From Roseovarius arcticus (GTDB lineage Bacteria; Pseudomonadota; Alphaproteobacteria; Rhodobacterales; Rhodobacteraceae), in NCBI RefSeq assembly GCF_006125015.1, contig NZ_SZZN01000001.1, positions 1,364,001 through 1,428,000 on the forward strand: DNA of 64,000 bases. The letters run 5' to 3'. Under the pieces are notes generated by a model. It saw only the letters and a program-made list of their open reading frames with translations, searched no databases and was not told the DNA's origin. A program made the translations under genes and the position numbers. This document shows positions 18,815 through 49,440 of this stretch, in pieces (the stretch's first letter is position 1; every line of letters starts with the position of its first letter).

Positions 18815-18829
18815 GAACAAGAAGAGAAC
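18815..18829. promoter_or_regulatory. LexA (SOS) box of recA
   Basis: GAAC-AAGAAGA-GAAC is a perfect match to the alphaproteobacterial LexA box (GTTC-N7-GTTC, read on the other strand). It ends 52 bases before the recA ATG. A second, imperfect copy, GTTC-TCTGTTT-GTCT, lies at 18788-18802. Two operators would allow tight repression of recA. Confidence 0.88.
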
Positions 18830-44056: not shown

Positions 44057-48468
<4,412 letters not shown>

Positions 48469-48495
48469 TCGATACATCACGATTTGTTCACGAAT

Positions 48496-48510
48496 GTTCT
48501 TAATAAGTTC
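48496..48510. promoter_or_regulatory. Perfect LexA (SOS) box before a 43-aa ORF
   Basis: GTTC-TTAATAA-GTTC is an exact match to the alphaproteobacterial LexA operator. A third GTTC at 48486 precedes it with a six-base gap. It lies in the 103-base gap after recG and ends 61 bases before the ATG of the small ORF, so the likely target is that ORF. Confidence 0.82.
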
Positions 48511-48571
48511 TTTACATTTCCCGCGAAAAATGAGAACAAAGTGGCAACTGATCAATTGAAAGGTCGTTGCC

Positions 48572-48703
48572 ATGATACACCAGATCAAAACAGTCGCCGC
48601 CCGCTCGCAAGAGACATTGCTGGGTGATGCCGTAGGCGCCGCTGCCTTGATGGTCATGTTAATGGGATGCCTCTATCTGCCGGGCCTTGCCCAAGGGTTT
48701 TGA
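48572..48703 (+). CDS. Small SOS-linked membrane protein (43 aa)
   Basis: This ORF of 43 residues has AAGG ten bases before the ATG. The start MIHQIKTVAARSQETLLGDAV is polar with basic residues. A hydrophobic helix follows (GAAALMVMLMGCLYLPGLAQ) and ends near the C-terminus. I do not recognise a family. The LexA box upstream makes it a candidate SOS gene, and a single-helix protein of this size with such a box recalls SidA and DidA, the Caulobacter SOS division inhibitors. The sequence does not establish homology to either. Confidence 0.65.
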   Translation: MIHQIKTVAARSQETLLGDAVGAAALMVMLMGCLYLPGLAQGF

Positions 48704-48879
48704 TAGAGGGGTTCTGATCAACCAGTTTCTGCCTGCGATATCCTGTGCCTCTTCGCTGACCGCATCTCCTGTCCCCAAAACTTGATGCAACGCGATTGAC
48801 ACTGCCTGTCACCGATCGTCTCGGGGTTCTAAAATCCCCACAATGGCGAAGAGGGTCCCACACGGGAAAACGCATACTT

Positions 48880-48916
48880 CCGCCGCCATCCAAACCGGAT
48901 GTGCGGCGGTTTTTTT
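48880..48916 (+). terminator. Strong rho-independent terminator
   Basis: Arms CCGCCGC and GCGGCGG, extended by ATCC/GGAT, are followed by seven T residues. It lies 177 bases after the 43-aa ORF, so either that mRNA has a long 3' region or a separate small RNA ends here. A TTGACA lies at 48796, but no good -10 follows it. Confidence 0.88.
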
Positions 48917-48933
48917 GTTGTATGTGGTTAATC

Positions 48934-49374
48934 TCAGGCGCAAGCCGTCTCGATCGCCTCCACGGCCGCGTCCAGCGCCAGCATGATCGACGCGTGCCGA
49001 TTCTTGTATTCGCGTGCCGGCATCAGCACTTCGAGCCCGTCGAACGGCGCGGCGGGTGGCGGGCCATCCTCCTTCAGCATGGCGCGCAGCGCGCCTTGCG
49101 CCTCGCGCACCTGCGCAGACGTGCAGCCGACGATGTTTGCGCCGACCACACTCGCCGCCGCTTGGCCGAGGGCGCAAGCCTTCACGTCCTGTCCGTAATC
49201 GGTGATGGTGCCATCCGCGCATGTCAGGTCAACTGTCACAGTTGATCCGCAAAGAGGCGCGCGCCGCTTAACCGTCGCGCCGGGGGCGTCAAGCCGGGTG
49301 TGCCGGGGAATGTCGGCCGCCAGTGCGAGGATGCGGGTCGAGTATAGCTTGATCATATCGGTATCGGCGGTCAT
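48934..49374 (-). CDS. NifU/IscU-like iron-sulfur scaffold protein
   Basis: The 146-residue product resembles the SufU/IscU N-terminal scaffold family that builds Fe-S clusters. The expected Cys sites are visible as APLCGSTVTV, VKACALGQAAASVV and IVGCTSAQV, with a further Cys in ETACA at the end. The start is ATG 49374; an 18-codon longer frame has no support. It is divergent from hisI with 66 bases between starts. No other suf or isc genes lie nearby, so its system is not clear from context. Confidence 0.82.
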   Translation of the reverse strand: MTADTDMIKLYSTRILALAADIPRHTRLDAPGATVKRRAPLCGSTVTVDLTCADGTITDYGQDVKACALGQAAASVVGANIVGCTSAQVREAQGALRAMLKEDGPPPAAPFDGLEVLMPAREYKNRHASIMLALDAAVEAIETACA

Positions 49375-49440
49375 GGCTGGTCCTTCGCAGTGATGCCCCT
49401 TAGATAAGGCGCGCACCGGCAGATGCAAAAGGAAAGTCCG

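Follow-up and report, generated by a model that had tools for sequence, protein, structure and literature searches.

A conserved membrane microprotein and a structured RNA downstream of a LexA box beside recG: a candidate SOS unit of Rhodobacteraceae

What is encoded in the short stretch downstream of recG in Roseovarius arcticus, and could it hold back cell division while DNA is repaired? A preliminary description of the window (the whole 64,000-nucleotide stretch of DNA that was analysed) had pointed to an exact GTTC-N7-GTTC at 48496-48510 with a third GTTC before it, to an ORF 61 bases further on with a ribosome site and a single hydrophobic helix, and to the placement of these elements after ligA-recG. 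All of this was borne out: the motif coordinates and spacing are correct in the sequence, with the three GTTC copies starting at 48486, 48496 and 48507, the box lies 61 bases from the ATG at 48572, the ribosome site GAAAGG and the single hydrophobic helix are present, and both neighbouring genes were identified by Pfam. Two elements go beyond that description, namely a GAAC-N7-CAAC at 48534-48548 and a covarying RNA at 48723-48916. The features of the locus are as follows.

44108-46357, upstream of recG: ligA (Pfam).
46354-48468, plus strand: recG, the upstream neighbour (Pfam RecG_wedge and RecG_dom3_C).
48486-48489, plus strand: a third GTTC half-site, separated by N6 from the box that follows (sequence).
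48496-48510, plus strand: putative LexA operator 1, the exact GTTC-N7-GTTC (GTTCTTAATAAGTTC), adjoining the probable -35 hexamer.
48511-48516, plus strand: TTTACA, probable -35 element.
48534-48548, plus strand: GAAC-N7-CAAC in the probable -10/start region, perhaps a degenerate second operator.
48558-48563, plus strand: ribosome binding site GAAAGG (sequence).
48572-48703, plus strand: ORF of a 43-residue single-helix membrane microprotein, predicted N-in/C-out.
48723-48916, plus strand: structured 3' RNA of ~190 nt (covariance model, fold z, covariation in relatives).
48734-48757 with 48845-48874, plus strand: closing stem of the RNA in the window's own fold.
48762-48788, 48792-48819 and 48823-48839, plus strand: hairpins of the RNA in the window's own fold.
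48880-48916, plus strand: intrinsic terminator hairpin and T run, the first terminator after the ORF and the RNA.

Facing the unit on the minus strand is an ORF at 48934-49428 that resembles SufU Fe-S scaffold proteins. It matched TIGR01994 with an E-value of 7e-11, below the family cut-off, gave no Pfam match at 1e-5, and 24 of the 30 loci from the genus have a SufU-like ORF nearby.

The closest named relatives of the microprotein ORF were from Roseovarius, and matches at E<1e-4 were obtained in 34 of 36 genomes of the genus, its own included (60 genomes searched). Searched with a profile, 394 family genomes yielded 331 with a match at E<=0.01, corresponding to 330 of 393 genera, with Ruegeria, Phaeobacter, Leisingera, Tritonibacter and Roseovarius among the named carriers, and recG was situated upstream of the ORF in all 58 distinct loci and all 80 named loci. 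Loss of the reading frame in relatives, which the preliminary description had put forward as grounds for abandoning the idea, is clearly not the case, the frame being kept alongside recG. The true frame gave a dN/dS of 0.22 in the genus set, indicating purifying selection, and of 0.28 and 0.41 when two sets from the family were used (right-length loci 26 of 28 and 51 of 60, the ratio being taken from pairs with pS<0.7 only), and the other frames gave 0.76-2.15. The ORF at 48572-48703 is, by these comparisons, virtually certain to be a real gene, and the earlier picture of a conserved single-helix membrane microprotein beside recG holds across the family. It matched no Pfam or NCBIfam family at E<=10, a single chance-level match was obtained in PHROGs (E 0.23), and one scan of viral contigs yielded no relative.

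The gene appears to be confined to the family. Among 385 alphaproteobacterial genomes sampled across the class, convincing matches were found in five genomes of the same family only and in none of the 380 from other families; two marginal matches were rejected, as they lay inside frames of 495 and 770 residues. Similarly, 28 recG loci of other alphaproteobacterial families contained neither a box within 400 nt after recG nor a comparable ORF (at one of them, L269, just 264 nt after recG could be assessed), and the best hit of the RNA model described below had an E-value of 0.15.

Within the family, 61 of the 63 profile-negative genomes have a RecG-like match, six of which are weak and were taken as a related helicase. 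Of 53 recG ends inspected in these genomes, two ran off the contig (L121 and L138). The first 28 assessable ends included 25 with a hydrophobic ORF of 36-67 codons close behind recG and 21 with an exact GTTC-N7-GTTC, while such an ORF was present at 16 of the next 23, nine of these 16 with the exact box; these ORFs are candidates, chosen by hydropathy and by eye. Neither ORF nor box was found at the remaining ten (L127, L128, L129, L272, L276, L277, L283, L284, L285 and L286). Most of the apparent absences thus seem to be diverged copies, and the gene or a candidate for it would be present in about 372 of the 394 genomes if every weak match is counted, the weakest of which could be false. The unit is dispensable, because ten profile-negative genomes have no ORF at recG and seven of them have a clear LexA.

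The box was assessed in 148 loci that were selected by protein alone and that all differ between -100 and +60, though some of the genus rows are close kin. An exact GTTC-N7-GTTC was present within 150 nt upstream in 140 of them: 30 of 30 in the genus set, 28 of 28 among the best family matches, 59 of 60 among the further family matches (sampled at roughly every other listed place) and 23 of 30 among the weak matches, which came partly from profile-negative genomes. Likewise, 78 of 80 named loci from Ruegeria, Phaeobacter, Leisingera, Tritonibacter and others carried it (10 of these 80 duplicate a locus among the 148), compared with one of 1026 windows of 150 nt elsewhere in the same loci. The position of the box relative to the ORF is far beyond chance.

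A box by itself is not rare, which would speak for a chance ORF next to a chance box; the pattern occurs twice in the 64-kb window against 1.33 expected, and 87 times in the 4.22-Mb genome against 159 for a reversed control pattern. Set against this reading is the conservation of codons, box and RNA in loci of many genera, and such a coincidence is extremely improbable. The gene, the box and the RNA are well supported as conserved parts of one locus.

Upstream of the ORF, 117 loci gave the consensus GTTC.C.AATGTTCT.AAAAAGTTCTTTAC, then TGAGAACAAA and CAACA, and the triple GTTC-N6-GTTC-N7-GTTC was found in 115 of the 148 loci. The TTTACA hexamer was conserved in the 117 loci at T98 T98 T91 A95 C92 A71 percent, and in 120 of 139 loci GAACA is set at a distance of exactly 27 nt from where the last GTTC starts, mostly with CAAC at N7. 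Several diverged loci, judged by eye, have an exact GAAC-N7-GAAC as second element, which makes 48534-48548 a candidate for a second, degenerate LexA operator in opposite orientation, covering the -10. The exact N7 box was absent from eight of the 148 loci. Three loci, L191 (from the same genome as L325), L155 and L327, have GTTC at N6-N6 spacing in its place, and here LexA perhaps tolerates a 10-bp register.

Within the same genome, recA, lexA and uvrA (identified by Pfam and NCBIfam) are each preceded by an exact box. The recA gene even lies in the same window as the microprotein ORF, from 18882 onward, with a GAAC-N7-GAAC at 18815-18829 that serves as a built-in positive control, and the LexA box of Caulobacter is reported as the same GTTC-N7-GTTC motif (PMC12700426). 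A GTTC-N7-GTTC operator over a promoter, the mark of the LexA/SOS regulon, is thus what was found at the locus. Control of the unit by LexA is very likely, because the box is conserved upstream of the gene, control windows are nearly empty of it, and recA, lexA and uvrA carry the same one.

LexA itself was sought with LexA_DNA_bind in 80 genomes, 11 of which gave no match. Two of the genomes, G209 (locus L144) and G359 (L131), are 99-100% complete and keep the exact box with no LexA_DNA_bind match, their repressor possibly being diverged or replaced. Among the ten genomes with no ORF at recG, G254 and G226 had no LexA match, G067 had marginal matches and seven keep LexA. A link between loss of LexA and loss of the gene was considered and dropped as weak, given those seven genomes and the boxes kept in G209 and G359. 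A further observation concerns two places in one genome (G000:C1:2589964 and 3668122; L102 and L104), where near-identical GTTCTATTTTTGTTC boxes precede the same downstream ORF; the pair is perhaps a duplicated or mobile SOS-controlled element.

The microprotein is 40 residues long in 101 of 118 relatives. Its lysines and arginines are concentrated at the N-terminal end (mean 2.42 in residues 1-19 compared with 0.01 from residue 23 on, n = 118), which predicts an N-in topology, and aspartates and glutamates average 0.00 from residue 23 on. AlphaFold2 modelled one helix over residues 2-40 with a mean pLDDT of 85.6. T15, D19, G22, L26, L30, L34 and P37 are strongly conserved, each being kept in between 99 and 106 of the 113 distinct sequences (a few of the aligned rows are out of register), and the conservation along residues 15-38 peaks at 100 degrees with modest significance (permutation p 0.0145). 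This pattern suggests that one conserved face of the helix touches another helix. By prediction, the locus has what typifies a SidA-type inhibitor, a small single-helix membrane protein under a LexA box.

Size, one helix and LexA control would also agree with a peptide of the TisB/DinQ kind, which would insert in the inner membrane, lower the proton motive force and lead to dormancy with no specific partner. TisB has charged residues in its membrane part, whereas that of the present microprotein is uncharged, and its conservation on one helix face, the purifying selection on it and its wide occurrence at one locus beside recG also argue against such a role. DinQ is described as an SOS-controlled single-transmembrane toxic peptide (PMC3567139), which lends the idea some precedent, and we nevertheless consider it unlikely. 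Docking on a specific partner helix is the reading preferred here.

The preliminary description had taken the peptide to be the sole output of the locus; the peptide stood, the exclusivity did not, since a conserved structured RNA occupies the stretch between the ORF and the first terminator. In 116 of 118 loci the stop codon is followed at 135-274 nt, mostly at about 185 nt, by a terminator-like end, although a simple terminator scan did not flag the window's own terminator at 48880-48916, and the stretch up to it holds conserved C-rich motifs. Folding of two wide alignments with MAFFT and RNAalifold returned the terminator only, plus one hairpin in one of them, and a further alignment yielded the closing stem with double changes at 7 of 34 pairs. 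As alignment-based folding recovered little, the stems were tested without alignment by swapping strands between loci and comparing own with swapped pairing; anchors were found in 102, 99, 82 and 109 of 116 loci, and for the middle hairpin in 103 of 116. The closing stem gave -25.9 for own strands and -17.2 for swapped ones (sd 0.33, 0 of 10,000 reaching the observed value, n = 102). The same held, with 0 of 5,000 each, for the CUGUCCC hairpin (-10.8 vs -7.8, n = 99), the GCCUC hairpin (-8.3 vs -5.75, n = 82), the middle CUGCCU hairpin (-8.8 vs -7.0, n = 103) and the upper stem of the terminator (-6.7 vs -4.0, n = 109), and two control segment pairs were not significant (p 0.13 and 0.24). The loci are related, so these values are not formal probabilities.

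A covariance model built from 18 sequences of other genera, with the window outside the training set, matched the window at 48723-48916 with an E-value of 5.5e-22. It was found at E<=0.01 in all 84 ORF-bearing loci searched, among which are 10 training loci and some duplicates, and of which L012, L017 and L038 matched over 69-83 nt only. One RNA alignment (A9) retained the 69 of 72 sources that passed 1e-12, three being dropped. In 68 distinct rows, 92.1% of cells pair (78.0 when shuffled) and 336 cells show double changes (85 when shuffled), figures from an alignment that was fitted to the model and is hence biased towards its structure. Sliding the structure lowered pairing to 35-51%. The 68-row structure has a five-pair CUGUCCC hairpin in place of four doubtful RNAalifold pairs, and one hairpin pairs in just 73.6% of cells. 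The window RNA has a fold z of -5.22. Rfam gave no match at E<=1 for window positions 48400-49000, and in five relatives nothing over the RNA, with two weak Ysr141 matches elsewhere, far below the gathering score. From these comparisons the structured RNA is almost certainly real.

The motif CUG[CU]C[CU] occurs 3.6 times per RNA compared with 0.51 in shuffled sequences (n = 116), its copies are 72% unpaired as opposed to 41% for the whole RNA, and the window has three, at 48729, 48769 and 48802. The RNA could be merely a cis element with no trans targets, stabilising the microprotein mRNA or ending transcription. Its place immediately after the ORF, ahead of any terminator, would suit such a role, as would the absence of the model where the ORF is missing: it was found at none of the ten profile-negative recG loci with no ORF, and at 23 of the 41 with an ORF candidate (E<=0.1 in both cases), some by the terminator part only. 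The covariation, on the other hand, extends through the closing stem and three hairpins, well past a terminator, and the recurrent, largely unpaired CUG[CU]C[CU] motifs are more in keeping with an RNA that pairs or binds protein than with a mere stabiliser. We therefore regard a purely cis function as doubtful, and give action in trans about an even chance.

Taken together, the ORF and RNA would lie on one shared transcript, although two separate ones are conceivable, and the following scheme is proposed. When DNA is undamaged, LexA would occupy the promoter via operator 1 over the -35, perhaps helped by operator 2, weaker and facing the first, at the -10/start. Damage would lead to a RecA filament and LexA cleavage, and one transcript of ~370 nt would be made, from about 48540 (a presumed start) to 48916. 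Its 5' part would be translated into a bitopic inner-membrane protein of ~40 residues with a cytoplasmic N-terminus, whose conserved face (T15, D19, G22, L26, L30, L34 and P37) would dock on a partner helix. Its 3' part would persist as an RNA of several hairpins in which CUG[CU]C[CU] seeds, mostly two to five in number, are exposed; these would probably base-pair with the G-rich ribosome sites of its target mRNAs. Inhibitors of the SidA type bind FtsW/FtsN and block division. The peptide may similarly act on a divisome membrane protein and the RNA, like DinR, on one or more cell-cycle mRNAs, such that division or the cell cycle would pause until DNA is repaired. LexA binding, induction by damage, the targets and division arrest are all inferred here, and the complete proposal of a LexA-repressed, dual-output SOS unit that halts division or the cell cycle is a tentative one, to which we give slightly less than an even chance.

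SulA (PF03846) was found in none of 100 family genomes, the present one included, while the E. coli control was matched, and the microprotein ORF itself has no SulA domain, as it has no Pfam match. With no SulA in these 100 genomes, the post of an SOS checkpoint looks open in the family. The unit could also serve another SOS-controlled process, such as the envelope, respiration, the CckA/CtrA phosphorelay, competence or the gene transfer agent. LexA sites have been predicted at c-di-GMP, GTA, pilus and flagella genes of D. shibae, LexA of R. capsulatus is reported to act on cckA (PMC6473078), and the microprotein has no recognisable partner. Indirect evidence points the other way, as in several phyla small bitopic proteins of the SOS response are described as division inhibitors (PMC13396833) and SulA is absent from the family genomes searched. 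A different process is thus possible without being the likelier outcome, and arrest of division or of the cell cycle, by analogy with these inhibitors, is a plausible main role that we hold at just under an even chance.

No earlier description of the locus and no SOS division inhibitor of Rhodobacteraceae was found in the passages searched of the CC-licensed PubMed Central literature, and recG, LexA and SOS are absent from the main text of an R. pomeroyi sRNA paper (PMC4809877). As far as the searches reach, neither the microprotein family nor the RNA family nor their combination in a single LexA-box unit is described in the databases and CC-licensed papers searched, while the individual parts resemble known ideas. 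The locus offers a ready candidate for an SOS division inhibitor in most of the sampled genomes of the family. It also brings two undescribed families, one of a microprotein and one of an RNA whose covariation is strong. Members of the Rhodobacteraceae are abundant in the sea and serve as model bacteria. Should a single LexA-controlled transcript yield both a peptide brake and an RNA brake, this compact unit would encode SOS control of the cell cycle at two levels. At its most far-reaching, and here we speculate, this would be a core yet unannotated SOS checkpoint of the entire Rhodobacteraceae, gained once beside recG in the family ancestor, in which a dual-function LexA RNA encodes a microprotein that stops the divisome and carries a new multi-seed riboregulator family that silences cell-cycle mRNAs.

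Several known systems share parts of this design. YneA, SosA and ChiZ are described as SOS- or damage-induced small bitopic division inhibitors of Gram-positives, and for small bitopic inhibitors other than SidA, FtsW binding is predicted at low confidence (PMC13396833). Unlike YneA, SosA and ChiZ, the microprotein consists of a single helix, lacks an extracytoplasmic domain and has no Pfam family. TisB and DinQ of E. coli resemble the unit as SOS-controlled hydrophobic peptides with an RNA element nearby. At tisB, this RNA is an antisense regulator of the toxin mRNA. The same is reported for dinQ (PMC3567139), whereas in the present unit the RNA follows the ORF on the ORF's own strand, and the peptide occurs widely, at a single locus. 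SidA of Caulobacter is described as a 29-residue SOS inner-membrane division inhibitor acting on FtsW (PMC4211646), and lexA mutants are reported to filament through sidA (PMC12700426). The likeness to SidA drawn here is one of description, both being tiny inner-membrane proteins of alphaproteobacteria with a GTTC-N7-GTTC box; the present protein differs in its position behind recG in Rhodobacteraceae, in its length of 40-43 residues and in the structured RNA that follows it. The closest parallel for that RNA is DinR of Klebsiella, an sRNA from the 3' end of the LexA-controlled dinI mRNA that represses ftsZ, with a pairing stretch described as Klebsiella-specific (PMC10907235). In both cases the RNA belongs to the 3' end of a LexA-box gene for a small protein, here between ORF and terminator, co-transcription being presumed for the present unit; the proteins are unrelated, and in contrast to DinR the RNA described here covaries across a family and carries several repeated seed-like motifs.
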